From assembly GCA_022711405.1 (NCBI GenBank), contig JAKLFC010000001.1:310001-374000 (forward strand): 64,000 bases of DNA, written 5' to 3'. The position numbers and the translations under genes are program-made. A model generated the notes under the pieces. It saw nothing but the letters and a program-made list of their open reading frames with translations. It made no database searches and was not told where the DNA came from. Numbering within the stretch: position 1 is the first letter of the stretch; each line of letters opens with the position of its first letter. This DNA comes from Bacteroidota bacterium. Its GTDB lineage: Bacteria > Bacteroidota > Bacteroidia > Bacteroidales > JAGONC01. Below are positions 5,862 to 57,012 of the stretch, piece after piece.

Positions 5862-5886
5862 TTTACATTTGGCTGGCATTTCCGGA

Positions 5887-11477: not shown

Positions 11478-11496
11478 AAATTCAGGGAATCTGCCG

Positions 11497-11504
11497 TATA
11501 TTTG
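11497..11504 (+). promoter_or_regulatory. Bacteroidota -7 box upstream of ychF
   Basis: TATATTTG matches the Bacteroidota -7 consensus TAnnTTTG exactly and lies 25 nt before the ychF start. No convincing TTTG -33 box is seen at the usual distance, so this rests on the -7 element alone. Confidence 0.4.
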
Positions 11505-11529
11505 TTTTTTCATCCCAAACTTCATTCGT

Positions 11530-12627
11530 ATGTCACTCAAATGCGGAATCGTGGGTTTGACCAACTCCGGCAAAACGACCATCTTCAACTGCATGTCTTC
11601 TTCCAAGGCAGAGGCTTCCAGAGCGGCGTTCACTTCTTCAAAATCCAATATCGGGATCATCCCTGTGCCTGATGACCGGCTTTACAGGCTGGATGCACTG
11701 ATCAAGTCCCAGAAGATCATTCCGGCCACTGTCGAGATCGTGGATATTCCTGGTCTGGCAAAAGGATCCAGTCACGGGGAGGGGATCGGCAATAAGTTTC
11801 TGGCCGACATACAGAAAACTGATGCCCTGATCCATGTGTTGCGCTGCTTTGATGATGAGATGCTGCCTCATATTGAGGGATCGGTGGATCCAGTCAGGGA
11901 TATTGAAATCCTGGAGCTGGAACTGCAGGTTAAGGATCTTGAAATGATCGAGCGCAAAATCCAGAAATATGAGAAACTGACAAAGATCGGTGAGAAGGAT
12001 GCGAGGAGAGGCCTGGAGGTGCTGCAGCACATCAAGGAGAACCTGGATAATTTTAATTCTATCCGGAATCTTAAGCTGACCGATGAGGAACGAAAGTACC
12101 TGACCGATCTTTTTTTGCTCACTGACATACCGGTGCTGTATGTCTGCAACGTGGACGACGCATCAGCTGTCGGTGGAAATGCATATGTCGACAGGGTAAA
12201 AGAAGCTGTGAAACACGAGGATACGGAAGTGATCATCATAGCTGGCAAACTGGAGGCCGAGATTGCCGAACTGGACAATCAGGATGACAGAATGGCATTT
12301 CTTGCCGATGCTGGCCTGAAAGAACCAGGTGTGAACAAACTGATCCGGTCCGCATATAAACTCCTGAACCTTGAGTCGTTTTTTACGGCAGGACCCAAAG
12401 AGGTCAGGGCATGGACCATACACAGGGGGATGACGGCTCCTCAGGCTTCCGGAGTGATCCATAGCGACCTGGAACGCGGCTTTATCCGTGCAGAAGTTAT
12501 GAAATACGACGACTTTATACGGTATGGATCAGAACATGCATGCAAGGAAGCCGGCAAGTTCTATGTGGAGGGGAAAAGCTATATCGTCCAGGAAGGAGAT
12601 ATCATTCACATCCGGTTTAATGTATAG
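11530..12627 (+). CDS. ychF: Ribosome-binding ATPase YchF (Obg family)
   Basis: YchF is a universally conserved P-loop ATPase of the Obg/translation-factor class that binds ribosomes and has been linked to oxidative-stress responses. The 365 residues match the E. coli length (363). The G1 motif is GLTNSGKTTIFN near residues 9-20 and G3 is DIPGLAKGSSHGEGIGN. The G4 region reads CNVDD, consistent with the family's altered NKxD motif and ATP preference. A coiled-coil insert (about residues 130-190) and a C-terminal TGS domain (AWTIHRGMTAPQASGVIHSD onward) follow. It is convergent with mltG, with only 16 nt between the stops. Confidence 0.96.
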   Translation: MSLKCGIVGLTNSGKTTIFNCMSSSKAEASRAAFTSSKSNIGIIPVPDDRLYRLDALIKSQKIIPATVEIVDIPGLAKGSSHGEGIGNKFLADIQKTDALIHVLRCFDDEMLPHIEGSVDPVRDIEILELELQVKDLEMIERKIQKYEKLTKIGEKDARRGLEVLQHIKENLDNFNSIRNLKLTDEERKYLTDLFLLTDIPVLYVCNVDDASAVGGNAYVDRVKEAVKHEDTEVIIIAGKLEAEIAELDNQDDRMAFLADAGLKEPGVNKLIRSAYKLLNLESFFTAGPKEVRAWTIHRGMTAPQASGVIHSDLERGFIRAEVMKYDDFIRYGSEHACKEAGKFYVEGKSYIVQEGDIIHIRFNV

Positions 12628-12643
12628 GAAATACCGCTAACTG

Positions 12644-13714
12644 TTAACTGCCAGTTGACTTACCCTCAGCCCGTTTCCTTTGCTGATAGGCACGCTGGTA
12701 CTTGCCCGCATTGACAAGGTGCTGATTATAGGTCCGCGCATAGTTATGATAACCTGAAAAATCTTCACGGGCGCAGAAATAATAGTAATCATGCTCTTCA
12801 TAATTCAGCACTGCGTCTATCGAAGCGATGGAAGGAACGCAGATTGGACCGGGAGGAAGACCCTCATACAGGTATGTGTTATACGGTGAATCAATGCGTG
12901 TATGACGGGTCAGTACACGTGTCATCTTGAAATCCCCAACCACAAAAACGACGGTCGGATCGGCCTGCAGCTTCCACGCATCTCTTAAACGGTTCATGTA
13001 AACCCCTGCCATTCTTGCCTTTTCATCGTTTTTCAGTGTTTCCTTCTCGATGATGGAGGCCAGTATACTCACCTGCTGCCGTGTCATCCCCGTACGGATC
13101 CTTTTTTTCTCCCTCTCCATATCCCAGAATTTACCGTACTCCTTATTCATCCGCTCAAAAAAATCCTTTGCGTCGGTATTCCAGTAGAATTCATAGGTAT
13201 TCGGGATGAACATCGTCAGGCTGGTCTCAGTATCCAATCCATATTCCGACAGATATACAGAGTCCGACAGCAGTTGCAGGAGGGTGAGGGAATCAGTTTC
13301 AAGCTGCCGGGATACTTTACCTGCCAGATCTTTTTTCAGACGGATGTTGTTCACTATTACCTGGACAGGTGTTTGTAGCCCTGCCCTCAGCATGTTGATC
13401 AGGTCATTGTTGTTCATGCCGCTTCGCAGAATGTACCGGCCTGGTTCGACCTGCTGAGGGTACTGCTTTTTCCCTGCAAGCCATTCAAAGGTACGGTGAT
13501 GAAGGATGAATCCATGCGAATAGAGGCTGTCCTTTACCTGGTCAAAGGTGGCGTTCGTCCGTATGTATAGAGATGTTTCGGGCTGACCGTGTACGATGAC
13601 ATTGGGTTTGAACCAGATCTGATAAACCATCAGGACAACGAAGGTAAAAACAGTGACCAGGCCAAGAAAAATAAATAAAAGGATTTTTATCAGCCTGGTT
13701 TTAAGCGCTTTCAT
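12644..13714 (-). CDS. mltG: Endolytic transglycosylase MltG
   Basis: MltG is an inner-membrane lytic transglycosylase thought to end nascent glycan strands. The start at 13714 (MKALKTRLIKILL) is preferred over the ATG 30 nt upstream, since it directly gives a signal-anchor helix (residues ~5-30). A LysM-like region is followed by the YceG catalytic domain: ASIIEKET with the catalytic glutamate, MAGVYMNRL, LQADPTVVF, SPYNTYLYEGLPPGPICVPS and a final DYYYF.A...GYHNYARTYNQHL block. The protein is 356 residues, normal for the family. It overlaps the 3' end of the upstream GNAT gene by about 14 nt and is likely co-transcribed with it and dapF. Confidence 0.93.
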   Translation of the reverse strand: MKALKTRLIKILLFIFLGLVTVFTFVVLMVYQIWFKPNVIVHGQPETSLYIRTNATFDQVKDSLYSHGFILHHRTFEWLAGKKQYPQQVEPGRYILRSGMNNNDLINMLRAGLQTPVQVIVNNIRLKKDLAGKVSRQLETDSLTLLQLLSDSVYLSEYGLDTETSLTMFIPNTYEFYWNTDAKDFFERMNKEYGKFWDMEREKKRIRTGMTRQQVSILASIIEKETLKNDEKARMAGVYMNRLRDAWKLQADPTVVFVVGDFKMTRVLTRHTRIDSPYNTYLYEGLPPGPICVPSIASIDAVLNYEEHDYYYFCAREDFSGYHNYARTYNQHLVNAGKYQRAYQQRKRAEGKSTGS

Positions 13715-14237
13715 GTGTATTGATTCGTTGCAGGATGTATTCATCCACCCATTTGTTATCGATCAGTAGCCATTCTTTTTTTAGTCCGATGATCTCAAAG
13801 TCATGCCTGGCAAACAGGTTCAGACTGACAACGTTGGAAGATGAGATGTGGTTAAAGAGCTGGTGCAGGTTCAATGTATTGAACGCATAATCGGTCAGGA
13901 GTTCCAGCGCCTCGGAGGCATATCCCTTACCCCGTTCCTCCCTGATGATGAGCACACCCACCCCGGCCCTCCGGTGAGCTGGCTCAAAGTCATACAGGTC
14001 GATTGTCCCAACGGTGATATTCTGATCCGAGGGATCCAGTTTATCGATCATGAAGCGCAACTGGCGGGTGGAATATATATCCAGTTGTGCATTCATTACA
14101 TACTGCTCAATGGCAAACCGCGAATAAGGCGCATTGGTGTTGCTAGCCCGCCAGACCGACCGGTCGTTTTCCCATTCATAGAGAAACTCAATATCAGAAG
14201 GTTCAGGAGCACGTAAGATTACGTTTTTACCGATCAT
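13701..14237 (-). CDS. GNAT-family N-acetyltransferase (RimJ/RimL-like)
   Basis: This 178-residue protein is of the Acetyltransf_3 type. It starts MIGKNVILRAPEPSDIEFLYEWEND, the usual N-terminus of RimJ/RimL/SpeG-like enzymes. The acetyl-CoA-binding strand-loop-helix is visible as VGVLIIREERGKGYASEAL (about residues 92-110), followed by LHQLFNHISSSNVVSLNLFARHDFE, the conserved beta5/alpha4 region. It probably transfers acetyl from acetyl-CoA to an amine; the substrate cannot be told. It lies 12 nt after dapF and overlaps mltG, so it belongs to that minus-strand operon. Confidence 0.88.
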   Translation of the reverse strand: MIGKNVILRAPEPSDIEFLYEWENDRSVWRASNTNAPYSRFAIEQYVMNAQLDIYSTRQLRFMIDKLDPSDQNITVGTIDLYDFEPAHRRAGVGVLIIREERGKGYASEALELLTDYAFNTLNLHQLFNHISSSNVVSLNLFARHDFEIIGLKKEWLLIDNKWVDEYILQRINTHESA

Positions 14238-14249
14238 ACAGGATTTGCT

Positions 14250-15038
14250 TTAAATTTCGAATTCACCCTTGAATACAAAAGTTGCAGGTCCTTCCAGCCA
14301 TATGTCATGGAAGCTGTTGCCTGATCTTTTAAAATGTACTGCCAGTTCGCCTCCGCAGGTCTGAAAAGCGATATGATCCCTGATCTCCGGATGAGCCAGC
14401 GCCATGAACAGGGCTGATGCGACTGTGCCTGTCCCGCACGATAATGTCTCATCTTCCACCCCTCTTTCATAAGTACGTATAAAATTCTTACTGCCACATG
14501 TCTCCACAAAATTCACATTAACTCCAGGTTCTTTGAAAGGAACGCTGTAGCGGACTTCCTTACCCATTTTTTTAATGTCCAGTGAGTGAATGTTTTCTGC
14601 AGGGATCACCACGTGAGGGGAACCGGTATCGATGACCGTTTCTTCTGCCCATGGCTCAGGAATCGTCACATCTTTCATTTTCAGTCTGACGATACACGTG
14701 TTCTCTTCCTCTTTTAAAACGATGGCCTGGTGCTCCCCATCCATTGCAAGAAAGTGGAAGGATCTCGCCGTAAATCCTGTTTTCCTGGCAAAAGCGGCAA
14801 TGCACCGGCCTCCATTTCCGCACATGGTCGATTCCTTCCCGTCGGAGTTGTAATAAATCATGCTGAAATCATAGTTTTCCGCATGATTCATAAGGATCAG
14901 CCCATCTGCACCGATACCGAATTTTCTGTCACAGAGTGACCTGACAAGATGACCCGTCAAAGGAAAAATGCTCCGGCGATTGTCAATGAAGATGAAATCA
15001 TTGCCAGTTCCCTGGTATTTCAGAAATGGTATCCCCAT
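14250..15038 (-). CDS. dapF: Diaminopimelate epimerase
   Basis: DapF converts LL- to meso-diaminopimelate, the last-but-one step of lysine synthesis and a peptidoglycan precursor step. The two catalytic cysteines are present: C73 in MCGNGGRC and C201 in SCGTGTVASAL. GTGNDFIFID, RKFGIGADGLI and NFVE are also intact. Length (262 aa) is normal. It is the first gene of a dapF-GNAT-mltG unit and is divergent from the DegP-type protease across 301 nt. Confidence 0.95.
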   Translation of the reverse strand: MGIPFLKYQGTGNDFIFIDNRRSIFPLTGHLVRSLCDRKFGIGADGLILMNHAENYDFSMIYYNSDGKESTMCGNGGRCIAAFARKTGFTARSFHFLAMDGEHQAIVLKEEENTCIVRLKMKDVTIPEPWAEETVIDTGSPHVVIPAENIHSLDIKKMGKEVRYSVPFKEPGVNVNFVETCGSKNFIRTYERGVEDETLSCGTGTVASALFMALAHPEIRDHIAFQTCGGELAVHFKRSGNSFHDIWLEGPATFVFKGEFEI

Positions 15039-25453: not shown

Positions 25454-25486
25454 AAGAGTCCCGCCCGCAAAGCGGGACTCTTTATT
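25454..25486. terminator. Bidirectional intrinsic terminator between rpsA and the FAD/FeS oxidase gene
   Basis: AAGAGTCCCGC (25454-25464) pairs perfectly with GCGGGACTCTT (25472-25482), with a 7-nt loop and a T-rich flank. Because the genes converge, it can end both transcripts. It touches the stop codon of the minus-strand gene. Confidence 0.85.
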
Positions 25487-28421
25487 TGAGGGCGTCGTAA
25501 AGGATTTCAATGGGGTGGTAGGCTCGTCTTCCCGTTCCTTCAAGGATCTGATGCCGGCAGCTGGTACCCGGGGCTACGATCAGCTCCTCGGGCGCAGATG
25601 CCCTGATGGCGGGAAAAAGTACCAGCTCGCCTATACGCATCGACAGCTCGTAATGCTCTTTTTCATAGCCAAACGAACCGGCCATGCCACAACATCCGGA
25701 TGGAATCTCCTCAACGGAATAGTTGATGGGCAGCGACAGCATCGTTCTGGTAGCTGCTGTGGAAGCCAGCGCTTTCTGGTGACAGTGCCCGTGCAATCTG
25801 ATCTTTCGTTTCTCAAGGGTAAATGCTTCCCGCGGAATGTTACCTTTTTGGATCTCCCGGTGGATAAATTCCTCAAAAAGCATCGTGTTCTTCGCCAGAT
25901 GCAGGGCGTCTGTCCTGAAGGATTCCCTTACCAGCCTGGGATATTCATCCCTGAAGGTCAGGATGCAGGAAGGCTCGATCCCAATAAGGGGAACTTCTGA
26001 GTTGACTTTATCCTTCAGCAGGGAGACATTCTTTTCCGCTATTTTCCGTGCTTTTCGCAGCAGTCCTTTCGACAGCATCGCACGCCCGCTTTCCGTGTGA
26101 GGAGGTATCATAACATTGTATCCCAGAGAATTCAGCAGCTTGATGGCCTTGATGCCGGTTTCCGTGTCGTTGTATTCCGTGAATTCATCCGCAAAAAGAT
26201 AAACCTGTCCCTTTGCAGGGGAAGCGATCTGGATCTGCTGGCGGTGCTTCCTGTACCAGCGGGTCAGGGTTGTACTGTGCAACAACGGAATAGATCGCTG
26301 CTGTGCAAATCCCATCATCCTTTTTAACAGCGAAGAGGTGAACAGGTTTTTCACTACGGCGTTGTAAATCCATGGAACCCATGATGCCATCCGGTTGATC
26401 CTGTTAATGGCGGCGATCATGGCAGTTTTAAGCGGAACACCGTTGGCCTCATAATAATGCTGAAGGAACTCGGCTTTGTACTTTGACATATCTACGCTGG
26501 AAGGGCATTCTGACTGGCAGCCCTTGCAGGAAAGACAGAGATCCATGATATCCCGGATCTCTTTATGGTCGAAAGGATTTTTTTTTGCCGAGTGGGTGAG
26601 GAATTCCCGGAGGATGTTGGCCCGGGCCCGCGTTGTGGTGTTTTCATCGCAGGTGGCCATATAGCTTGGACACATGACACCGCCGATTCGTTCCGACTTC
26701 CTGCAGTCACCCGATCCATTGCATTGTTCTACCGCGCGCAGTAAACCCATGGTCGCTGAGAAGTCGAAGAACGTGTCGAATTCCCTTGTGACCTGCCCGG
26801 GCTTATAACGCAATCCCGACGTCATGGAGGGAGTGTCTGTAATCTTACCCGGATTAAAGATCCCGTCGGGATCCCAGGTCTTTTTTATGGAACGAAGCAG
26901 CTCATAATTCTTTTCACCGATGATCAGGGGTATGAATTCTCCCCTGACCCTGCCATCCCCATGCTCGCCGCTCAGGGATCCTCTGAACCGCTTGACCAGC
27001 AGTGCTGTATCATGGGCAATCGCATGGAAAAGCCGGACATCTTTCTCTTTTTTAAGATTCAGGACAGGCCTCAGGTGAAGTTCTCCGGTAGCTATATGTG
27101 CATGGTAAACACACGTTGTCCCGTGACGGTCCATCAGCTTCCGGAATTCACTGAGATAATCAGGGAGATCGGTGGGTCTTACGGCCGTATCTTCGACGAC
27201 CGAAACAGGTTTTGCATCACCGGGAATATTGGTCAGTAATCCGAGGCCCGCCTTTCTGAGTGCCCAAACTTTCGCAATGTCACCTCCGAAAAGAAGCGGA
27301 AAGTGATATCCAAAGCCTTTTTGCAGCATTTCAGCCTGAATGGCCCGGGCAAGGGAAATGATCTCTTCCCGGGTTTCTCTGGCAAACTCAATGATCAGGA
27401 TAGCAGCCGGTTCACCCTCGACAAAGAACCGGTTCTTCCTTTGTTCTATGTTCTGTTTTGTCTGATCCAGTATATGGTGATCGATCAGTTCGATGGCACC
27501 GGGATGATACTCCAGGGCGATGAGGTTGGCATGGAATGCCTCCTCCAGTGAATGAAAGTGAACGCAAAGCAGGCCTTTGGTCCTGGGAGGGAGTGGAACC
27601 AGGTTGAGCTTGATCTCCGTGATGAATGCCAGGGTGCCTTCAGAGCCTGCCAGTAAACGGCAAAAATTGAAAGGAGGACTGTTCCTGGTGAATGGCTCTG
27701 ATTCCAGAAGAAGATCAATGGCATAGCCGGTGTTTCTGCGTTTGATGGAAGGATCGGGAAATTGTTCACGTATCTCTTTCTGATGATCCGGATTTTCAAG
27801 GATATCGCGGATATTCCGGTAGATACGGTTTTCAAGCGTTTCCCCACTGCATTTATTCGTGAACGCTTCAGGACTGAGCTGACCGAAAGCAGCTTCACTT
27901 CCGTCGCTGAGCAGTGTTTGCAGTTCCAGGGTGTGATCCCTTGTGCTTCCATAGATCAGGGAATGTGCTCCGCAGGCATTATTGCCCACCATGCCGCCGA
28001 TCATGCAACGATTGGATGTTGAGGTTTCGGGACCGAAAAACAATCCGTGCGGTTCAAGGAATTTGTTCAGTTCGTCGAGAACTACGCCTGGTTCAACGCG
28101 GACCCATCTTTCAGCCGTATTCAGTTCCAGGATCCTGGTCATGTAGCGGGAAACATCCACGACTATTCCCCCTCCGACCACCTGGCCGGCCAGGGAGGTG
28201 CCTGCAGTCCTGGGTATCAGTGACGTACCGTGTTTTCTGGCAAAATGGATCAACCGGCGGATATCATCCTTGTTTTTTGGGCGGGCCACGGCGAGCGGCA
28301 CTTGCCTGTAAGCGGATGCATCCGTCGAATACAGCAGCCGGTATGCTTCTTCCACAAAAAGATCCCCTGCAAGCGACTGTTTGAGCTGTGTCAGTGTAAC
28401 TATCTGTTCTTCCTGAGCCAT
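25482..28421 (-). CDS. FAD-linked oxidase with Fe-S domain (D-2-hydroxyglutarate/D-lactate dehydrogenase type, YdiJ-like)
   Basis: This 979-residue fused flavin/iron-sulfur dehydrogenase oxidises a D-2-hydroxyacid. Residues ~35-260 are the FAD-binding domain (IPRTAGTSLAGQ, MVGNNACGAHS). About 265-515 is the FAD-oxidase C-terminal domain, with HIATGELHLRP and LSGEHGDGRVRGEF. About 560-660 holds cysteine clusters for Fe-S binding, including CLSCKGCQSECPSSVDM. The C-terminal third has the CCG-type motifs GHCHQKALA and GCCGMAGSFGYEKEHY. Length and order resemble E. coli YdiJ (about 1,018 aa), a D-2-hydroxyglutarate dehydrogenase; D-lactate is the alternative. It starts 50 nt after the DUF1338 gene, and DUF1338 enzymes make D-2-hydroxyglutarate, which supports the first choice. 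Confidence 0.88.
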   Translation of the reverse strand: MAQEEQIVTLTQLKQSLAGDLFVEEAYRLLYSTDASAYRQVPLAVARPKNKDDIRRLIHFARKHGTSLIPRTAGTSLAGQVVGGGIVVDVSRYMTRILELNTAERWVRVEPGVVLDELNKFLEPHGLFFGPETSTSNRCMIGGMVGNNACGAHSLIYGSTRDHTLELQTLLSDGSEAAFGQLSPEAFTNKCSGETLENRIYRNIRDILENPDHQKEIREQFPDPSIKRRNTGYAIDLLLESEPFTRNSPPFNFCRLLAGSEGTLAFITEIKLNLVPLPPRTKGLLCVHFHSLEEAFHANLIALEYHPGAIELIDHHILDQTKQNIEQRKNRFFVEGEPAAILIIEFARETREEIISLARAIQAEMLQKGFGYHFPLLFGGDIAKVWALRKAGLGLLTNIPGDAKPVSVVEDTAVRPTDLPDYLSEFRKLMDRHGTTCVYHAHIATGELHLRPVLNLKKEKDVRLFHAIAHDTALLVKRFRGSLSGEHGDGRVRGEFIPLIIGEKNYELLRSIKKTWDPDGIFNPGKITDTPSMTSGLRYKPGQVTREFDTFFDFSATMGLLRAVEQCNGSGDCRKSERIGGVMCPSYMATCDENTTTRARANILREFLTHSAKKNPFDHKEIRDIMDLCLSCKGCQSECPSSVDMSKYKAEFLQHYYEANGVPLKTAMIAAINRINRMASWVPWIYNAVVKNLFTSSLLKRMMGFAQQRSIPLLHSTTLTRWYRKHRQQIQIASPAKGQVYLFADEFTEYNDTETGIKAIKLLNSLGYNVMIPPHTESGRAMLSKGLLRKARKIAEKNVSLLKDKVNSEVPLIGIEPSCILTFRDEYPRLVRESFRTDALHLAKNTMLFEEFIHREIQKGNIPREAFTLEKRKIRLHGHCHQKALASTAATRTMLSLPINYSVEEIPSGCCGMAGSFGYEKEHYELSMRIGELVLFPAIRASAPEELIVAPGTSCRHQILEGTGRRAYHPIEILYDALK

Positions 28422-28471
28422 GAAAGATTTAATACGATGATCCTAAAGAAAAACCGAATATCCGGTAAGGA

Positions 28472-29290
28472 CTACTTCCTGTAAAAATCAGTGCTCTCGA
28501 AAATCTTATCCGCCGATTTGGCAATGAAACCAGAATACAGCCTGCCGTCCCTGTCAGGGTACCTCCTGGCAAATTCATAATAACAGGAGGGTATGCTGAA
28601 CCTGCCCTCTGAAAATTCCACCTCAATGATCCCAGCCCTGGTGCTTGACTGCTCCAGCAGCTCCTGAGGAGTTCCCTTGATCTCGCCCTCTGCGGTATTT
28701 AAAAGAAATCCCTTTGCTTTCAGGAAATCATTCACCTTTTCGAGGGTGTTCAGATTTTTGAGTCCATTGACACTGACAGTGAAATGGTTGGCACAGAATC
28801 CATATACGTAAACCCAGGCTGCATATTCCGATTCAGTACGAAGCTTCTCATATATTTCAAAGGAGGGTTTGCCCCATACATTACCGGAATAGATGAGTTC
28901 ATCCGACGTCAGCAAATCCCGGGGTATTTGATCGATGACCTGTTTTGCCGTTTTTTGCGTGAATTCACTGAACTCTTCCAGGATCAGTTCGCTGATGAAG
29001 ACGCGGGGCGCATCCACACTGGATTCATCTTCAAAGTGCCTGGCAAAGAGGTGTTTCTTCTCAAAGGTGTAAGTGCCTTTCAGAACGTATCCCGACCGGA
29101 TGAAGGGTCGGGAGAGCACATCAATATTCACCCTCGGATCGTTGAAGGTACGAAATGCAATGTGGTCGTTGATCACCTTTTCTCCTGTTTCCGTAAAGGA
29201 GTCATAAATGCGTTTGACCTCTGGATTGTAAAGTGTATAATCATGCCAGAGGCGATCAAAGATGCGCTGGGAAGGAGATGGAGAAGTCAT
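28472..29290 (-). CDS. DUF1338 protein, probable 2-oxoadipate dioxygenase/decarboxylase-like enzyme
   Basis: DUF1338 enzymes (HglS/YdcJ) are Fe(II) vicinal-oxygen-chelate-like proteins. The characterised member turns 2-oxoadipate into D-2-hydroxyglutarate in Pseudomonas lysine catabolism. The metal triad pattern is present in order: H43 in NDHIAFRTF, H169 in ANHFTVSV and E239 in SCYYEFARRYP. At 272 residues it is shorter than the Pseudomonas enzyme (about 460) but resembles the compact form common in Bacteroidota. The downstream FAD/FeS oxidase could convert the product to 2-oxoglutarate. An 8-bp repeat array lies 12 nt upstream of its start codon. Confidence 0.82.
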   Translation of the reverse strand: MTSPSPSQRIFDRLWHDYTLYNPEVKRIYDSFTETGEKVINDHIAFRTFNDPRVNIDVLSRPFIRSGYVLKGTYTFEKKHLFARHFEDESSVDAPRVFISELILEEFSEFTQKTAKQVIDQIPRDLLTSDELIYSGNVWGKPSFEIYEKLRTESEYAAWVYVYGFCANHFTVSVNGLKNLNTLEKVNDFLKAKGFLLNTAEGEIKGTPQELLEQSSTRAGIIEVEFSEGRFSIPSCYYEFARRYPDRDGRLYSGFIAKSADKIFESTDFYRK

Positions 29291-29384: not shown

Positions 29385-30365
29385 TTAGAACAATGCTTTC
29401 ACAAAATCCTGATGTGTCATTTCCAGGTTTGATGTCAGCTCCGGATGGGCATCAAGGTACTGCAGGATCGATTGTTCCTCATGTTTGAGCCCTTCCATCT
29501 GTTTGAAAAGTTCTGACCACCTGGTTGCCGGGGCAGGTTCAAAGATATGGATTTTTTGTACAATGCCGTTTCGGACCGGGATCACTGCTTTAATTTGATT
29601 TCCCTGCGCTGTAAATTCAACCTTGACCTGGTAGGATGGCGAATACCCGAAATTCCATTCCCATGTCTGATATTTTTGTGCTGAAAGGGCATGGATGGCT
29701 TTCTCATCGGAAGCACGTAACGGGACCCGGAGGATAGGGGAGAAGCTGCGGATGATCTCTTCTGCCAGCCGTTGCTGGAATGTTTCCACAGAGGGCGGGT
29801 CTACCAGGAATTTGCTAATGTTGGCAACGGGAACCGGATTGGAGCGAATGGATTTATCCGTGTACCTGGAACTGTTGTTCACCAGCGCATGGTGAAGGTT
29901 CTGCAGGTCAGTGGAGTAGAGTAGCGTTCCATGGTGCAGTACCCTGTTCCTGAACAAATGCTGCGAGTTGCCTGATATTTTACGCTGATGAACGGTAAGG
30001 TCGCTTTTACCTGAACGTTCGCAAGGGATCTGCAACCGGTTCAGGATTGTCATCACAGGCTGCAGGAACTTATCGTAATCGATCGTGTAAGGGGCAGTGA
30101 GCGAACGAATGAACGTAAAATTTATGTTGCCCGGATCGTGATACACAGTTCCCCCGCCGGTTATCCTTCGGATGACAGGTAAATTGTTTTCTTTTACATA
30201 GCTAAAATTGATTTCCCGGTAGGGGTTCTGGTGTTTTCCGATGATCACTGAGGGCATGTTTCGCCATAGCATGATCACATCATCTTCCTTATAGTTACGG
30301 AAGAAATATTCTTCGGCGGCCAGGTTGAAATAGGGATCGGTGCCGGACCGTTCAATGAAAAGCAT
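29385..30365 (-). CDS. lplA: Lipoate--protein ligase
   Basis: LplA activates free lipoate with ATP and attaches it to lysines of 2-oxoacid dehydrogenase E2 subunits or GcvH. The 326 residues contain the BPL/LplA fold motifs: DPYFNLAAEEYFF, LWRNMPSVIIGKHQNPYREIN, VIRRITGGGTVYHDPGNINFTFI, and the lysine-containing GKSDLTVHQRKISGNSQ. The C-terminal accessory domain (about 240-326) is present. Its ATG is one base past the nrfA stop, so it is almost surely co-transcribed with the nitrite reductase genes. Confidence 0.92.
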   Translation of the reverse strand: MLFIERSGTDPYFNLAAEEYFFRNYKEDDVIMLWRNMPSVIIGKHQNPYREINFSYVKENNLPVIRRITGGGTVYHDPGNINFTFIRSLTAPYTIDYDKFLQPVMTILNRLQIPCERSGKSDLTVHQRKISGNSQHLFRNRVLHHGTLLYSTDLQNLHHALVNNSSRYTDKSIRSNPVPVANISKFLVDPPSVETFQQRLAEEIIRSFSPILRVPLRASDEKAIHALSAQKYQTWEWNFGYSPSYQVKVEFTAQGNQIKAVIPVRNGIVQKIHIFEPAPATRWSELFKQMEGLKHEEQSILQYLDAHPELTSNLEMTHQDFVKALF

Positions 30366-30366
30366 C

Positions 30367-31845
30367 TCAGAACTGTTTGCTGTATTCTTCTTTCCATCTG
30401 GGGACGACCTGGTCCAGGAATTTCTGCTTTTCTTCCTTAAGATTTTTCATTTCCAGCCCAATGACCTGCTGTACCCTTTCTTTCGTGGATATGTCGGGCA
30501 GGTCAATGGCATTAGTGACACCATGTGTGAACAGGATCCTTGAGAGAAGCACACGGGCTTCCTGTGCTTTATCCATGGCCGTTCCGAGCAGGCGGAGGCT
30601 TTCCACGGGAGAGTGAAATGATCCCCCATGGCTGGCAGCTACATAGTCCCACCTCCACTGTGCATGGCGGATTAAAAGGAGGGCGGGTTTCATCTCTTCT
30701 TCGGTGGCGCCGGCGTCCCATGCTGCTTTGGCTTCAAAATGCGCCCTGCAGATGTTCTCTTCTACTTTATCACGGATCTCCAAAGTTTTTTTCTGTCTTT
30801 CATACACATTTTCATAGAGCGTTTCTTCGCTTTCCCTATGGCACACCTGGCATGAAGCCGCCAGGTTGTTCAATGGACTCTGAATATGGTGGTCGGTGAA
30901 TTTCTGTCCACCTTCGTTCTGGTAAGGCATGTGGCAGTCTGCGCAGGAAACTCCTCTTTCATAGTGGATTCCCGTTGTAAATAATTCAAAATCAGGATGC
31001 TGTGCCTTGAGCATCGGAGTCCGGCTGATGGCGTGCTGCCAGTCGGTGAATTCATAGGAATCATAGTAGCCTTCTATCTCATCGGCTGTCATTCCCTGAT
31101 CCCAGGGAAAGGTGAGGTATTTTTCATCTCCTTTGAAATAGTACTCCACATGGCACTGGGCGCACACCAGGCTGCGCATCTCCTGGTGACTGACAGCCGT
31201 TATATCCCTACCCATCCTTTGAAATGCCTCGATGAGCCCTGGGCGGCTGATGCGGAGGTTCTGAGTGACCGCATCATGGCAGTCGGCGCATCCGATCGGG
31301 TTGATGATCTGGTTACCGCGGGAGGCCCATTTACCCTTGTAGAATTCGGCCACTCCCACCTTGTGCATCACCCTGGGCACATCCGGGCTTTTACATGCCC
31401 AGCAGGTGTTTGGCTGTGGGCCTTGATCAGGTCCCATGGGAGCACCTGTCCGAAGGGTATTGTGGATATCGGTCACCGCATAATAATGTCCCCTTCCCTG
31501 GTTATAATCCTTTGCGAACGCATAGCCGGCCCACAGGATCACCAGTTTGGGATCGTGTTGCAGCATATCGATCATGGAGCTGCCGCCAAATGCACTCCGG
31601 AAGCTTGTATCTCTTGTCTTCAGCCAGCTCTGGTACTCGCGCGGATAGTTTTGTCCCCAGATTTCATTTCTGGCCTCCCACTGGCTTACTTCTATCTTTG
31701 GCTTATCCATCAGCCGGGCCTCTGATCGCCTTTCAATGATGGAAGAGGCCAGCAGGCCCAGGATAAAGACAATGGCCATCGTAAGGAAGAAAATAATCCA
31801 GCCTAACCAGGGTTTGCGATTGATCTTTTCACGGATGGAATTCAT
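30367..31845 (-). CDS. nrfA: Ammonia-forming cytochrome c nitrite reductase, catalytic subunit NrfA
   Basis: NrfA reduces nitrite to ammonium with six electrons at the periplasmic face; it also reduces NO. The 492 residues start with a signal/anchor helix (about 14-36). Five haem sites are present: the catalytic CWACK (C148, lysine-ligated) and CxxCH sites at C186, C228, C301 and C332. LRTGAPMGP near residue 131 holds the conserved active-site arginine. Length agrees with E. coli NrfA (478). nrfH precedes it by 24 nt, and lplA follows after one base. Confidence 0.96.
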   Translation of the reverse strand: MNSIREKINRKPWLGWIIFFLTMAIVFILGLLASSIIERRSEARLMDKPKIEVSQWEARNEIWGQNYPREYQSWLKTRDTSFRSAFGGSSMIDMLQHDPKLVILWAGYAFAKDYNQGRGHYYAVTDIHNTLRTGAPMGPDQGPQPNTCWACKSPDVPRVMHKVGVAEFYKGKWASRGNQIINPIGCADCHDAVTQNLRISRPGLIEAFQRMGRDITAVSHQEMRSLVCAQCHVEYYFKGDEKYLTFPWDQGMTADEIEGYYDSYEFTDWQHAISRTPMLKAQHPDFELFTTGIHYERGVSCADCHMPYQNEGGQKFTDHHIQSPLNNLAASCQVCHRESEETLYENVYERQKKTLEIRDKVEENICRAHFEAKAAWDAGATEEEMKPALLLIRHAQWRWDYVAASHGGSFHSPVESLRLLGTAMDKAQEARVLLSRILFTHGVTNAIDLPDISTKERVQQVIGLEMKNLKEEKQKFLDQVVPRWKEEYSKQF

Positions 31846-31869: not shown

Positions 31870-32445
31870 TTACGGATTGTTTGCATGGTTTTCGAGCCAC
31901 GAAGGAACGGGTGAAGTGGGGCGGGGGACAGGTGCAAAAGGGACACTGGAGAGGCTGTTCACTCTTCCGTGAGGTACCTCCCTGTGGCATTCCCAGCACA
32001 ATCGTTCCGGTTCGCAGAATGTAGTAGTTCCCCGGCACTCAATCCCGGTAAGCAGGTGCTCGTGGCACCTCTCACAATTTCCACGAACAGCCTCCTTGCC
32101 GGGCTCCCTGATGAAGATGACCTGGGGTTCCCTTCTCAGCGTAAATATGGTAGCATGGCGCAGACCATCCTTGGCCTTGAAATAATATGCATTCAGGATA
32201 TTATTGTGAGGAACATGGCAATCATTACAGGTGGCCGTTTCCCTGTGGGAGCTGTGGGCCCAGGTTGCATAATAGGGTGACATGATATGGCAGTTGACGC
32301 ATGCCGATGGCTCATTGGTGAGATAAGAATCCGCCCTGGAAATATGGATAAGTAACAGGATACAACCTGCCATGATCCCCAACAGGATAATCACAGGCAC
32401 TTTCCAGGATTCTGGAGGAAGAAGCCATCGGATGAGTTTCTTCAT
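31870..32445 (-). CDS. nrfH: Cytochrome c nitrite reductase small subunit NrfH (tetrahaem quinol dehydrogenase)
   Basis: NrfH anchors NrfA to the membrane and passes electrons from menaquinol. The 191 residues have one N-terminal membrane helix (about 16-35) and four CxxCH sites (starting at 49, 73, 124 and 150), as in the NapC/NirT family. It is the first gene of nrfHA. The 95-nt region upstream holds two inverted repeats and a near-consensus -7 box. Confidence 0.94.
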   Translation of the reverse strand: MKKLIRWLLPPESWKVPVIILLGIMAGCILLLIHISRADSYLTNEPSACVNCHIMSPYYATWAHSSHRETATCNDCHVPHNNILNAYYFKAKDGLRHATIFTLRREPQVIFIREPGKEAVRGNCERCHEHLLTGIECRGTTTFCEPERLCWECHREVPHGRVNSLSSVPFAPVPRPTSPVPSWLENHANNP

Positions 32446-35046: not shown

Positions 35047-35694
35047 ATGATGAAAATCAACAGATTAAAAAAGTGCTTCCCCTACACCTTGCTGGGCTTG
35101 ACCTTATTGTTAAGTTCCTGCGGGTTGTTTGAACAGGTGGGGCAGATGGCTACCCTTGCCAAATGTGAGTTCAAGCTGAAGTCCGTTCAGCAGCTGACCC
35201 TAGCGGGTGTAAATATTCAATCGATCAAATCGATATCTGATCTGGGGCTTATTGATGCCGGTGTGATTACCGCATCCATGGCAGGGGGAAAGTTACCGCT
35301 GAGTTTCACGCTGAACATCGAAGCTAAGAATCCAAATGACCAGCTTGCGGCCATGAACCGGCTGGACTGGATCCTGTTCATTGATGACATTGAGATGATA
35401 CAGGGAGTACTGGAGGAGAGAATTCAGATCCCTGCCGGCGGAGGTACAACGGTGATTCCGTTGAATATGAACATGGATCTTAAGAAAGTCCTCTCGGGCA
35501 AGTCTGCCGAAACGATCATCAATTTTGGATTCAATCTTGCCGGACTGGGAGGGGAGCCCACGCGCATCACTGTAAAAGCCAAACCCACGATTATGGTTGG
35601 CACTCGTGAGATCGTATACCCTGGGTATATTTCCATCACCACAAAATATGGCAACGAGTCTGACAGTAAAAGCGGGAATATAAAACTGAACTAA
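35047..35694 (+). CDS. Lipoprotein with LEA type 2-like domain
   Basis: The start at 35047 gives a 215-residue protein with a lipoprotein signal peptide ending in LLLSSCG, so it is probably anchored in the inner or outer membrane by its cysteine. The mature part resembles LEA14/WHy-type beta-sandwich domains, with FTLNIEAKNPNDQLAAMNRLDWILFIDD as the typical NP-containing strand pair, and IPAGGGTTVIPLNMNMDL. Such proteins are often placed near desiccation or envelope-stress genes, but the role is unknown. It is divergent from the Rrf2 gene and convergent with the aconitase-family gene, whose stop overlaps its own by a few bases. Confidence 0.75.
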   Translation: MMKINRLKKCFPYTLLGLTLLLSSCGLFEQVGQMATLAKCEFKLKSVQQLTLAGVNIQSIKSISDLGLIDAGVITASMAGGKLPLSFTLNIEAKNPNDQLAAMNRLDWILFIDDIEMIQGVLEERIQIPAGGGTTVIPLNMNMDLKKVLSGKSAETIINFGFNLAGLGGEPTRITVKAKPTIMVGTREIVYPGYISITTKYGNESDSKSGNIKLN

Positions 35695-37496
35695 AACAGG
35701 CCGCCGTTCTGATAGATCTCCAGCTGTACTTCCGAGAATTTGTCCGCCATCATTGATTTACCTTTTGTGACGTTCGTCACTTCCCCGGTTTCAAAGTTAA
35801 GCCGGATGTTATCGCCGTCTTCCAGGTCAATGGGCTGAACGGATCCGTACGTCATGATCGGCAGAGCTGCATTGATGGCGTTGCGTTCATAGATGGCTCC
35901 GAATGATTCTGCGAGGATGGCCTGAACACCCAGTGACGTGAAGCAGTCCACAGCCTGTTGGCGCGACGAGCCGCTGCCAAAATTCTTCTGTACCACCACA
36001 ATATCTCCGGCTCTTGCTTTTTTGGCAAAATCCTCATATCCTTTCAGGTTATCGAATGTGTACTGCCCCATCTCATTGATGTTGGTGATGGTCAGATAAC
36101 GGTTGTGGAAGATCATATCTGTATCGATATCATCTTTTTTGATAAACCAAGCCCTGCCTTCGACAGTGGTGGGTTTCTGTTCGGGGATCGGCGCTTTTAC
36201 TCCGGCGGCTTGCTGTGGCGCTGCTTTTTCTTTAAACGTGTAAACCATGGGCTCTTCAGGGATATCGCCAGGTGTGGTGATATATCCTGCTATTGCCGAT
36301 GCAGCCACGACTTCAGGGGAGGCAAGGTACACCTCGCCTTTGCCCTGTTTGCCAGGGAAATTACGATTCCCTGTGCTGAGGGTAATTTCTCCAGGACCAT
36401 TTTGTCCGACCTGTCCTGCAGCACATCCAGCGCAGCCGGCATTGGAAACCAGGGCTCCAGATTCCTTGAAGATCTCGATGATGCCTTCATTCAGACACTC
36501 CTGCCAGATTTCATCCGTAGCAGGTACGATTTTCAGCACAACCCCTGGCGCCACTTTCTTGCCCTGCAGGATGGAAGCTGCTTTCTTCAGATCTTCCATT
36601 CGTCCGTTTGTGCAGCTGCCGATAAAGGCCGAATCGATTCGCGTGCCTTTCACATCTTGAATATCAACGGTATCATGAGGTTTTCCAGGTCTGGAAACGC
36701 GCGGTACGAAACGGCTCAGGTCGAGATCGAAGGTTTGTTCGTACCTGGCATCGAAATCGGCTTTAAGCAGGGTGATCTTCTTACCGGCTCTTTGTGAGCT
36801 GTACTCAAGTATTTCGGGTGATGGTGTGAACAGGATGATGATGGCTCCCATCTCTGTTGCCATAGAAGCGATGGTGATGCGTTCATCCAGCGTCAGCCTG
36901 TCGACTTCATCACCGTAGATTTCGATGGAGTATCCCAGCAACTTGTTGGCACCGAATGTATGGAGCAAATTCAGCACGATGTCTTTGGCGCTCAGCCCTT
37001 CGGGCCTTTTCCCGTTGAGGTTGATCCTGACCGAAGGCGGTACTTTGAACCACACTTTTCCTTTGGCCCAGGCAGCAGCGATATCCTGGTCCCCCATTCC
37101 CTGCCCGAAGGCTCCGACAGCCCCGAGAATATTGGCGTGAGAATCGGTGGTAACCACCGTGGATCCTGAATGTGCCAGTCCCTCGTGGATGAGGATGTGG
37201 GTTCCGATCCCTTTGTCGATGTCGTACACCCTGATCCCATGCTCCCGCGCGAACATACGGCAGATCTGCTGATTCTGTGCGTACTTCTGATCCGAGCCGG
37301 TGGGATTACAATCAAAGGTAAAAAATGTCCTGTCGGGATCATGAACAGATAGGCCGTGATCGATGATGTTCCTGACGACGTTGGCTCCGCCAAAGTCCCT
37401 GGCAGCTCTGACATCCAGTTCAATATCAACAATATCTCCGGGTTTTACAGATTCATACTTCGAATGAGCAGCAATTATTTTTTCAATAAGGTTCAT
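35691..37496 (-). CDS. Aconitase-family hydratase with fused large and small domains (aconitase / isopropylmalate isomerase type)
   Basis: This 601-residue [4Fe-4S] hydro-lyase joins LeuC-like (residues 1-~420) and LeuD-like (about 455-601) parts. The substrate motif TDSHANILGAVGAFGQGMGDQD is present. The Fe-S cysteines are in GSCTNGRMED and SNAGCAGCAAG. The swivel domain has NFGSGSSRQQAVD. It lacks the extra length of E. coli AcnA/AcnB (about 890 aa). With the isocitrate/isopropylmalate dehydrogenase at 38313-39509 it could form a citrate to 2-oxoglutarate arm, leucine synthesis or a homologous route. No leuA or citrate synthase is in the window to decide. An 8-bp repeat array lies 5 nt upstream of the start. 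Confidence 0.88.
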   Translation of the reverse strand: MNLIEKIIAAHSKYESVKPGDIVDIELDVRAARDFGGANVVRNIIDHGLSVHDPDRTFFTFDCNPTGSDQKYAQNQQICRMFAREHGIRVYDIDKGIGTHILIHEGLAHSGSTVVTTDSHANILGAVGAFGQGMGDQDIAAAWAKGKVWFKVPPSVRINLNGKRPEGLSAKDIVLNLLHTFGANKLLGYSIEIYGDEVDRLTLDERITIASMATEMGAIIILFTPSPEILEYSSQRAGKKITLLKADFDARYEQTFDLDLSRFVPRVSRPGKPHDTVDIQDVKGTRIDSAFIGSCTNGRMEDLKKAASILQGKKVAPGVVLKIVPATDEIWQECLNEGIIEIFKESGALVSNAGCAGCAAGQVGQNGPGEITLSTGNRNFPGKQGKGEVYLASPEVVAASAIAGYITTPGDIPEEPMVYTFKEKAAPQQAAGVKAPIPEQKPTTVEGRAWFIKKDDIDTDMIFHNRYLTITNINEMGQYTFDNLKGYEDFAKKARAGDIVVVQKNFGSGSSRQQAVDCFTSLGVQAILAESFGAIYERNAINAALPIMTYGSVQPIDLEDGDNIRLNFETGEVTNVTKGKSMMADKFSEVQLEIYQNGGLF

Positions 37497-37500
37497 TATA

Positions 37501-37532
37501 ATAAACTGTTAAATTGTCAAATTGTCAAATTG
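37501..37532. repeat. 8-bp tandem repeat array, 4 units, upstream of the aconitase-family gene
   Basis: ATAAACTG, TTAAATTG, TCAAATTG and TCAAATTG run contiguously, starting 5 nt upstream of the ATG of the minus-strand gene. Confidence 0.85.
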
Positions 37533-37552
37533 TTATTTAGCTAATAGGGGAT

Positions 37553-37610
37553 TGGTACTGGAATTTGTGATTTGGAATTTGTTTGGATCCTGGATTTTGG
37601 GATTTGGAAC
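37553..37610. repeat. Intergenic word repeat built from GGATTTGG/GGAATTTG
   Basis: A run of closely related words (GGAATTTG, TGATTTGG, GGATCCTGG, GGGATTTGG) fills the gap after the HD gene. Its complement appears at 39563-39620, before cca. No coding or hairpin role is evident. Confidence 0.6.
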
Positions 37611-38156
37611 TTAGATCTTCAGCCTTTCCTTAAAAGGCAGAAATGTCATAAAATCAGCATGATGCACGACATAAGCCTCGGTTGACCGTTTCACAAGGTC
37701 TCCTTCATGGGCATGGGCGGCGATGATATGACAGACTTCGGCCGGAACGCCGCACTGTTCAGCCAGTGAGACTCCGGAAAAGGGATGCCTGAGGTATTTT
37801 CCATAATTGCCCTGTACGGCGACTCCATTTTTATCCAGTGTGTATTCAAGCAGTTTACCGACGTCTGCCAGGATAGCTCCCGCAATAAGGACATCCATAT
37901 CGACGGGGAGGTCGGCTTTGTAGAATTGATTCATGATTTCACCTGCAGCCCTGGCAATGTGTACAACTGACCGTTTGTGGTCCATGAAGGTCACCTTCAG
38001 GTCGGGGCCGCATAACAGGGTGAAAGGGATCCTGTTCAGATCCTCGGGCGTTAGCACACTTTTTTCGAGAGCCATTTCCCATGTCCGTGCGGTTTTCTCC
38101 CGTAGATCCTTATCCTTGATCCAGTGGAGTTCAGGCCATAATTCGTAGATGTTCAT
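37611..38156 (-). CDS. HD-domain-like protein with altered metal site
   Basis: This 181-residue protein resembles HD phosphohydrolases: KRSVVHIARAAGEIMNQF, then DVLIAGAILADVGKLLEY, and later HPFSGVSLAEQCGVPAEVCHIIAAHAHEGD. The defining His-Asp pair is changed: where a canonical protein has LLHDIGK, this reads ILADVGK (A97-D98). Other histidines (60, 66, and the HAHEGD cluster) remain, so metal binding may be altered and not lost. The function is unknown. It sits between the dehydrogenase and the aconitase-family gene on the same strand. Confidence 0.72.
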   Translation of the reverse strand: MNIYELWPELHWIKDKDLREKTARTWEMALEKSVLTPEDLNRIPFTLLCGPDLKVTFMDHKRSVVHIARAAGEIMNQFYKADLPVDMDVLIAGAILADVGKLLEYTLDKNGVAVQGNYGKYLRHPFSGVSLAEQCGVPAEVCHIIAAHAHEGDLVKRSTEAYVVHHADFMTFLPFKERLKI

Positions 38157-38158
38157 TG

Positions 38159-38198
38159 TTAAATTGTTAAATTGTTAAATTGTTAAATTGTTAAAATG
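38159..38198. repeat. 8-bp tandem repeat array, 5 units, abutting the HD gene start
   Basis: Four perfect TTAAATTG units and one TTAAAATG begin 3 nt upstream of the ATG of the minus-strand HD gene. This is the most perfect of the six arrays. It runs directly into a TGCTGAC/TGCTGAT 7-bp repeat. Confidence 0.9.
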
Positions 38199-38233
38199 CT
38201 GACTGCTGATCCTGATTTCGTTCCACTCATCAG

Positions 38234-38275
38234 GACTGACTGCTGACCGCTGACCGCTGACCGCTGACTGTTGAT
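38234..38275. repeat. 7-bp tandem repeat (CGCTGAC) array
   Basis: Units TGCTGAC, three CGCTGAC and TGTTGAT repeat head to tail. A related CGCAGAC array is at 39628-39651, and two AGTCAGC units (the complement) are at 57013-57026. The 156-nt gap 38157-38312 holds only these repeats. Confidence 0.8.
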
Positions 38276-38312
38276 CCTTCGTCTCTGCGTTCCTCGGGAC
38301 CATGCTGCGAAT

Positions 38313-39509
38313 TTACCTCAGCTTCGCGATCACAGCATCTGTCATCTGTGAGGTGGAAGCGGCGCCATGGTTGATCACCTCGGGGCTGCCCTTCATCTTC
38401 AGCATATCATACGCTTTTACATGGCCTTCTTCGACAACGGCAGCAACAGCGTTTCTGATACGGGTTGCAGTTTCCCCTTCGCCGATATGATCCAGCATCA
38501 TGCAGGAAGAAAGGATCATGGCGATCGGGTTGACGATGGATGTTTCGTATCCGGCATATTTGGGAGCAGAGCCATGGGTGGGTTCGAAGACCGCTACAGA
38601 GGGACCAATGTTTGCGCTGCAGGCAAACCCCAGGCCTCCCACCAGTCCGGCGAATCCATCGGACACGATGTCGCCGAACATATTACCGGCAATGATCACA
38701 TTAAAATCCTCAGGATTTTTGGTGAGCCACATCATCTGTGCATCAATGTTTACATCCTGAACGCGGATGTCGGGATATTCATTTTTGGCCATTTCCTGCG
38801 CAATTTTCAGCATCATCCCGGATGTTTCCCGTATCACGTTGGGCTTTTCGCAGACAGTCACCGTCTTGAATCCCTTCGATTTTGCATATTCAAAACCGGC
38901 TTTTACGATCCTGGTCGTGTATTTTCTGGTAAAGATACGCGTGGAGACCGCCAGATCGGGACGGGGACACCAGGCGAAATTTTCCCTGAACTTGGGATGG
39001 GTCATCAGAGCGTCATAGACTGTGTCGGGTGGATTGGTCCATTCCACTCCACCGTACAATCCTTCCGTGTTCTGCCTGAAGATCATGGTATCAATGAAGG
39101 GTTCCTCAACCGTATTTCCTGGTCCTCTCCGGATGAAATTCAGCGGATTTCCCTTGAAGGTGCGGCAGGGACGCATGCAGATATCCAGATCAAAATGCTG
39201 GCGCATGGAAACGATCGGACTGTAATACTGAAAGCCCTTTCCCTGCAGATCAGGAGATAATTCGGCGGCTGCCTTGTCTTTTGGTTTGGATGTGATGGCC
39301 CCGAACAGGGCTATCTTATGCTGTTCCAGCAATTTCAGCGTTCTGTCGGGCAGGGGATTCCCTTCGTTGCACCAGAATTCCCATCCGATATCACCGTATT
39401 CATAGTTGGCTTTGAAGCCGGACGCTTCCAGAACCCTGATCGCTTCCTTCAGAACGATCTTTCCAATCCCATCTCCGGGTAAGGCTACGATAGTGCGTGT
39501 TGATGTCAT
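38313..39509 (-). CDS. Isocitrate/isopropylmalate dehydrogenase family protein
   Basis: This ~398-residue NAD(P)-dependent beta-decarboxylating dehydrogenase begins RTIVALPGDGIGKIVLKEAIRVL. The substrate arginine region is DICMRPCRTF, with RQNTEGLYGGVEW following. The metal aspartates are in IDAQMMWL and NMFGDIVSDGFAGLVGGLG. The cofactor loop reads EPTHGSAPKYAG. The frame also opens at an ATG 9 nt upstream (39518). Isocitrate is favoured if the neighbouring aconitase-family enzyme makes isocitrate, but 3-isopropylmalate or homoisocitrate cannot be excluded from sequence alone. Confidence 0.87.
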   Translation of the reverse strand: MTSTRTIVALPGDGIGKIVLKEAIRVLEASGFKANYEYGDIGWEFWCNEGNPLPDRTLKLLEQHKIALFGAITSKPKDKAAAELSPDLQGKGFQYYSPIVSMRQHFDLDICMRPCRTFKGNPLNFIRRGPGNTVEEPFIDTMIFRQNTEGLYGGVEWTNPPDTVYDALMTHPKFRENFAWCPRPDLAVSTRIFTRKYTTRIVKAGFEYAKSKGFKTVTVCEKPNVIRETSGMMLKIAQEMAKNEYPDIRVQDVNIDAQMMWLTKNPEDFNVIIAGNMFGDIVSDGFAGLVGGLGFACSANIGPSVAVFEPTHGSAPKYAGYETSIVNPIAMILSSCMMLDHIGEGETATRIRNAVAAVVEEGHVKAYDMLKMKGSPEVINHGAASTSQMTDAVIAKLR

Positions 39510-39562
39510 ATTGTTCATGTTATGGGTTACAGTTATACGAATTACTCATTATTGACTTCGTC

Positions 39563-43580: not shown

Positions 43581-43747
43581 TACCAGAATACTTTTAGATT
43601 ATAGAAAAAAGCGTGTAAAGATATAGAATCCTGTCTATCATCATACAATCGGGAATATAAAGTGGAAACTGTCGGATGGTTATAGGGTGTATCAGGGAAT
43701 GGGGGCAAATATTTTGCCTTTTACTTGCAAAAAGTTTCCAGTTTATG

Positions 43748-43755
43748 TATTTTTA
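43748..43755 (+). promoter_or_regulatory. Weak -7 box for the first Fib_succ_major gene
   Basis: TATTTTTA is one base from TAnnTTTG and has a TTG 20 nt upstream (43725-43727). It lies 26 nt before the start codon at 43782. The gap 43581-43781 holds nothing else that I recognise. Confidence 0.3.
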
Positions 43756-43781
43756 GTCCATTAAACTCAAAAATATATAGT

Positions 43782-56917: not shown

Positions 56918-57012
56918 AGGAGAAGGAATATAATGAAGAATGAAGAGTATCATTTAATGCTCTAAATATAGGAAATTATCTTTGGGAAAAGCAAGTGCAT
57001 TGATTAAAAAAT

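Follow-up and report, generated by a model that had tools for sequence, protein, structure and literature searches.

What is a gene for a DUF1338 protein doing next to one for a flavoprotein dehydrogenase in the genome of a Bacteroidota bacterium? Both genes lie in a stretch of 64,000 nucleotides of that genome (assembly GCA_022711405.1, contig JAKLFC010000001.1, positions 310,001 to 374,000), which is called the window here and in whose coordinates positions are given. An earlier note, written from the letters of the window, had proposed that the two enzymes lead from 2-oxoadipate to 2-oxoglutarate at the end of a lysine or 2-aminoadipate pathway. Judging by sequence, predicted structure and genomic context, the pair is likely to form the terminal module of a saccharopine route that degrades lysine under aerobic or microaerobic conditions. 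The enzymes as such are already known; their setting, a saccharopine pathway with an O2-dependent end in a Bacteroidota, is well supported and apparently little described, and a search of the literature for an HglS-ended lysine pathway in Bacteroidota, which had partial coverage, retrieved nothing relevant. The pair consists of the following elements.

28472-29290, minus strand: hglS-like gene, predicted DUF1338 (PF07063) 2-oxoadipate dioxygenase/decarboxylase of 272 aa (Pfam, phmmer, residues, fold)
28422-28471, minus strand: intergenic gap of 50 nt between the hglS-like and the ydiJ-like gene (open reading frame (ORF) coordinates)
25482-28421, minus strand: ydiJ-like gene, predicted D-2-hydroxyglutarate dehydrogenase of 979 aa (Pfam, NCBIfam, active-site columns)

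The claim that the two genes stand 50 nt apart on one strand is exact in its coordinates, both being on the minus strand. In the pathway that we propose, lysine and 2-oxoglutarate would be condensed to saccharopine by lysine-ketoglutarate reductase (LKR), the gene of which is found and the function of which is assigned by homology, and saccharopine would be cleaved to aminoadipate semialdehyde and glutamate by saccharopine dehydrogenase (SDH), whose gene adjoins that of LKR. The semialdehyde would be converted to 2-aminoadipate by aminoadipate semialdehyde dehydrogenase (AASADH), where either a substitute aldehyde dehydrogenase or a gap in the assembly has to be assumed, and a putative aminotransferase would supply 2-oxoadipate. 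This acid and O2 would be turned into D-2-hydroxyglutarate and CO2 by the HglS of the window, with Fe(II) bound by H43, H169 and E239 and the distal carboxylate gripped by R47, and the YdiJ-like flavoprotein would finally produce 2-oxoglutarate, the electrons leaving via its 4Fe-4S clusters. An end via HglS and YdiJ would be shared with plants, whereas mammals go through glutaryl-CoA.

The co-occurrence of the genes was analysed in 198 genomes of the same order (Bacteroidales), in which HglS was found in 45 genomes, a YdiJ-like gene in 130, AASADH in 54, a heme-copper oxidase in 85 and cytochrome bd in 138. Every one of the 45 HglS genomes carries the YdiJ-like gene, compared to 85 of the 153 others (p 2e-10), and AASADH is present in 27 of the 45 compared to 27 of the 153 (p 1e-7), where the p-values, here and below, ignore shared ancestry. 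According to a hand count from coordinates, HglS and the YdiJ-like gene are located side by side on one strand in 19 of the 45 genomes, and in one genome of the order (G166) HglS adjoins AASADH. On a wider scale, a scan of 84,980 species returned 80 HglS loci; among the 79 public loci used for neighbour counts, many of which end early, a YdiJ-like gene lies within 2.5 kb of HglS in 35 and is its immediate neighbour in 24. Conservation of the pair, which the earlier note had left for checking, is thus borne out by both sets, and this recurrence rules out a chance adjacency. D-2-hydroxyglutarate is harmful in other settings; here its producer and its remover appear to be kept together.

Several of these loci place HglS among genes of lysine catabolism. 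The usual order in Flavobacterium is Lrp/AsnC, HglS and AASADH (825 bits with NF050084, cut-off 730), and Arcticibacter shows the order YdiJ, HglS, saccharopine dehydrogenase, Lrp and AASADH, the latter again above the NF050084 cut-off. A gammaproteobacterial metagenome-assembled genome (MAG; locus L060) has saccharopine dehydrogenase, AASADH, YdiJ and HglS in a row, and this set of four, differently oriented, is also found in Coxiellaceae MAGs; AASADH exceeds the NF050084 cut-off in the gammaproteobacterial MAGs as well. The gammaproteobacterial YdiJ is 42% identical to E. coli YdiJ and only 32% identical to the YdiJ-like protein of the window, from which we conclude that two distinct YdiJ lineages are paired with HglS. 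The follow-on enzyme is often encoded beside HglS, a different YdiJ having been recruited in two unrelated bacterial groups, and gene order extends to Bacteroidota the end of lysine catabolism of the plant and Pseudomonas type, i.e. HglS followed by a D-2-hydroxyglutarate dehydrogenase. A separate observation concerns genome G179 (locus L105, about 8665-13999), where AASADH and saccharopine dehydrogenase stand beside a truncated lysine 2,3-aminomutase-like ORF and where CoA-transferase-like and thiolase-like genes are found too, a combination that, as read from sequence, suggests anaerobic and aerobic lysine routes together.

In the genome of the window itself, LKR (472-aa ORF) and SDH (448 aa) are encoded in tandem (G000:C7, about 81.8-84.6 kb), with matches of LKR to the LKR domain of human AASS (5e-66) and of SDH to yeast Lys9 (2e-87) and human AASS (4e-83). 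In this tandem the genome resembles the saccharopine pathway of plants, animals and some bacteria; unlike the known LKR/SDH-AASADH arrangement, it has two separate genes for LKR and SDH and no AASADH was found. A role of LKR-SDH in lysine biosynthesis is unlikely, since one gene of the window indicates that lysine would be made by the diaminopimelate route:

14250-15038, minus strand: dapF, diaminopimelate epimerase (TIGR00652 210 bits, cut-off 114.65)

The earlier note had suggested a search for lysine aminotransferase or 2-aminoadipate genes, which turned out divided: lysine 6-aminotransferase (TIGR03251) had no match in the 198 genomes, where the control genomes gave none either, and the LKR-SDH tandem was found. 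The entry to the proposed pathway, as judged from these genes, would be the saccharopine route and not lysine 6-aminotransferase.

A number of points weigh against lysine catabolism as the role of the pair. The LKR-SDH genes are on another contig, so that the pair adjoins no lysine gene in this genome, and no AASADH (L-piperidine-6-carboxylate dehydrogenase) was detected above cut-off in its 95%-complete assembly, the best aldehyde dehydrogenase reaching 200 bits against the AASADH cut-off of 730 and being more similar to lactaldehyde and succinate-semialdehyde enzymes. AASADH was also not detected in 18 of the 45 HglS genomes of the order, and the associations given above do not account for shared ancestry. 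With regard to the follow-on enzyme, the best NCBIfam model is YdiJ (NF049975), matched with 671.5 bits at an equivalog cut-off of 1350, and the column of Thr390 of human D-2-hydroxyglutarate dehydrogenase (D-2-HGDH), one of the positions for the C5 carboxylate, holds Leu in the window protein and Val in E. coli YdiJ. Because of the score below the equivalog cut-off we name the protein YdiJ-like and not YdiJ; the gammaproteobacterial YdiJ beside HglS in locus L064 is likewise below this cut-off (1221 bits). As to AASADH, a genome of the same genus, G002, carries this gene together with LKR-SDH and lacks HglS; the neighbour gene of its AASADH was likewise not found in the assembly analysed here, so that either a loss of AASADH or an assembly gap may explain the absence. 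Residues, fold, co-occurrence, the independent re-pairing and LKR-SDH speak well in favour of the lysine or 2-aminoadipate end-pathway proposed in the earlier note, and the AASADH not found makes the completeness of the pathway doubtful.

The alternative that survives best, although we consider it unlikely, is that both enzymes act as proposed but serve the cell as a housekeeping measure that detoxifies stray 2-oxoadipate and D-2-hydroxyglutarate, with YdiJ mainly recycling D-2-hydroxyglutarate made by SerA, and not in lysine degradation. The missing AASADH of this assembly would fit such a role. Moreover, the YdiJ-like gene, present in 130 of the 198 genomes, is far more widespread than HglS and is retained where HglS is absent, from which we conclude, in our preferred reading as well, that the enzyme has a function beyond HglS, probably the clearing of SerA-derived D-2-hydroxyglutarate. 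Four loci of Flavobacterium (L070, L077, L080, L086), in which a SerB-SerA fusion separates HglS from YdiJ, suggest SerA as a second source of this compound, and in E. coli SerA produces and YdiJ removes D-2-hydroxyglutarate (PMC9504171). Detoxification as the sole role is opposed by the LKR-SDH tandem in the window's own genome and by the clustering of HglS elsewhere with AASADH, saccharopine dehydrogenase and Lrp/AsnC, together with its co-occurrence with AASADH.

Another alternative, less probable still, takes the YdiJ-like protein for a dehydrogenase of D-lactate or glycolate whose position beside HglS is accidental. Its top sequence matches in the PDB are indeed a glycolate oxidase and D-lactate dehydrogenases, which agrees with this view as does the score below the YdiJ cut-off. 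On the other side, the 979-aa protein consists of FAD_binding_4, FAD-oxidase_C and 4Fe-4S dicluster domains (Pfam) in a single chain, which, including the GlpC-like C-terminal half, matches YdiJ over the full length (951 aligned columns, 31% identity to the E. coli protein), and the E. coli enzyme is reported to have strict specificity for D-2-hydroxyglutarate (PMC9504171). When active-site columns were mapped to human D-2-HGDH by motifs and spacing, not by structure superposition, the positions that serve catalysis and the lactate moiety were all matched (R389, H442, H449, E486, H487), and at the C5-carboxylate columns K404 was found at Lys401 and R451 at Asn443. Asn443 is a ligand of the C5 carboxylate in the human enzyme, and the position is hydrophobic in D-lactate dehydrogenase (D-LDH) and GlcD (PMC7801405); our alignments agree in that the column is hydrophobic in most D-lactate and glycolate enzymes. 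In contrast, it holds Arg in 43 of 43 YdiJ-like sequences including E. coli YdiJ, so that R451, short of being proof, would favour a dicarboxylic substrate. The presence of the gene in every HglS genome and the independent pairing of HglS with a second YdiJ lineage also argue against an accident. The window protein thus shares full-length architecture, active-site set and the Arg at the Asn443 column with the YdiJ of E. coli and Pantoea, and differs from them in its low identity, in its score and in its position next to HglS.

For the HglS protein, slightly lower odds attach to the idea that the short DUF1338 clade acts on a different 2-oxo acid. The family assignment of the earlier note proved correct, the 272-aa protein matching PF07063 (HGLS) with an E-value of 1.9e-29 and 103.6 bits (gathering cut-off 25), and the H-H-E pattern that it had pointed out is present: the metal ligands H43, H169 and E239 occur without exception in the 80 sequences aligned (80 of 80), and so does R47, the arginine that governs substrate specificity, on which the note was silent. 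R47 is part of an HxxxR motif that was aligned with rice FLO7 by phmmer and is the equivalent of Arg74 of Pseudomonas putida HglS, which is essential, and of Arg64 of FLO7 (PMC7286885). The nearest solved structures in the phmmer search were 3LHO of Shewanella (1.3e-78) and FLO7 (6W1K, 3e-29). An AlphaFold2 model (pLDDT 89.8) showed the VOC-like fold of hydroxyglutarate synthases, and its best Foldseek matches were again 3LHO (TM 0.88/0.94, rmsd 1.7) and 6W1K, the rice enzyme with 2-oxoadipate bound (TM 0.88/0.78), followed by 3IUZ, YdcJ (2RJB) and P. putida HglS (6W1G), with the group of 4-hydroxyphenylpyruvate dioxygenase and hydroxymandelate synthase ranking behind the DUF1338 structures. 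The protein has Pfam family, fold, H/H/E ligands and substrate arginine in common with FLO7 and Arabidopsis AT1G07040, which are 31-32% identical and plastid enzymes, whereas the window protein has about 270 aa and is encoded beside its follow-on enzyme. It shares its short subfamily with 3LHO, a putative hydrolase of Shewanella frigidimarina, to which it is 48% identical along nearly the entire chain. P. putida HglS and E. coli YdcJ (Shigella 2RJB) are members of the same DUF1338 family with the same reaction expected, but are much longer and only about 15-18% identical, and were missed by phmmer and reached by fold alone.

In favour of a different substrate it can be said that the assayed proteins FLO7, AT1G07040, HglS and YdcJ, which all convert 2-oxoadipate to D-2-hydroxyglutarate (Thompson et al., PMC7286885), are distant and that 3LHO is uncharacterised according to the same paper. 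Against it stand the invariant R47 and the complete HHE triad, together with the activity of HglS, among the acids tested, on 2-oxoadipate only, and the same authors predict 2-oxoadipate activity for every DUF1338 protein with the arginine (PMC7286885). With the evidence from gene order, the function predicted for the many unassayed short DUF1338 proteins can be put to the test in cultured bacteria, for instance Flavobacterium.

Elsewhere in the window (35691-39518, minus strand), three genes stand in a row, which encode a fused aconitase-like protein of the LeuC/LeuD type, a protein with an HD domain and one that resembles isocitrate/homoisocitrate dehydrogenase. That these genes supply 2-oxoadipate by homocitrate-type chain elongation instead of lysine is hardly credible and was rejected, since no homocitrate synthase was identified among the two HMGL-family matches of the genome (342-aa and 289-310-aa ORFs) and it is simpler to read the two enzymes as aconitase and isocitrate dehydrogenase. 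In favour of such an elongation, AksF-type models match the dehydrogenase best and the hydratase scores above the threshold of a HacA-family subfamily model, though both proteins stay below the specific equivalog cut-offs, and the trio recurs near HglS in L028 and L042 and the aconitase-like gene in L046.

The pair forms the end of a longer run of genes on the same strand, nrfH-nrfA-lplA-hglS-ydiJ, with gaps of 24, 1, 94 and 50 nt, the upstream members of which are as follows.

31870-32445, minus strand: nrfH-like membrane cytochrome gene, which opens the run (position; CxxCH motifs of the translated protein)
30367-31845, minus strand: nrfA, ammonia-forming cytochrome c nitrite reductase (NF008339 691.5 bits, cut-off 595)
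29385-30365, minus strand: lplA, lipoate-protein ligase, directly upstream of hglS (TIGR00545 314.8 bits, cut-off 280)

An nrfH-like gene upstream of nrfA is conserved in loci carrying the pair, and lplA, which is found upstream of HglS in 27 of the 79 public loci, keeps this place in Bacteroidales more constantly than any other gene. A weak terminator-like hairpin at 28466-28453 was called within the 50-nt gap, but shuffled sequence gives calls of this kind at least as often as the region does; promoter and terminator scans of the region gave no usable signal.

The earlier note had seen a tension between an O2-dependent step and the presence of NrfA, which turned out not to exist. A cbb3-type oxidase is encoded in the genome, with a CcoN-CcoO fusion and an apparent operon around it, and this makes the O2-consuming HglS step plausible; cytochrome bd was not detected in this genome. 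Across the order, HglS tracks terminal oxidases: a heme-copper oxidase is present in 34 of the 45 HglS genomes compared to 51 of the 153 others (p 5e-7), and some terminal oxidase in 44 of the 45. An O2-dependent step is therefore not impossible in an organism with NrfA.

Two congeners, G001 and G002, share the gene order of the window (yidC, S1, ydiJ, lplA, nrfA, nrfH, cupin, Rrf2), except that no HglS separates ydiJ from lplA. Each of the two carries cytochrome bd but lacks a heme-copper oxidase, and G001 is also without the DUF438-type gene of the window. Since the order nrfHA-lplA-hglS-ydiJ recurs in further loci, a loss of HglS in these two genomes is the simpler explanation, and a recent horizontal gain in the window's lineage is not favoured, HglS being placed among Bacteroidales sequences in a weakly resolved tree. 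The slot between lplA and ydiJ might conceivably be an oxygen-linked switch that ends an otherwise retained lysine pathway: where the oxidase is kept, HglS would be kept and 2-oxoadipate burnt to 2-oxoglutarate, and where it is lost, exactly HglS would be lost, with YdiJ and, in at least one congener, LKR-SDH kept. If so, lineages without the oxidase must dispose of 2-oxoadipate in another way. As the comparison comprises two genomes, and 11 of the 45 HglS genomes are without a heme-copper oxidase, we propose this link to oxygen only as a tentative hypothesis.

Two further features of the window were noticed. A 736-aa ORF (6929-9139, plus strand) encodes a NifS/IscS-type cysteine desulfurase fused to the selenide, water dikinase SelD, beside the gene for the tRNA 2-selenouridine synthase MnmH (5869-6912, plus strand), which brings selenium donor, activator and user together. 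Furthermore, the translations at 43725-45635, 51080-53899 and 54128-56953 are three large proteins that are paralogous to each other, look secreted and start in a dockerin-like manner, each containing two or three repeated modules that end in an 'RC' motif.

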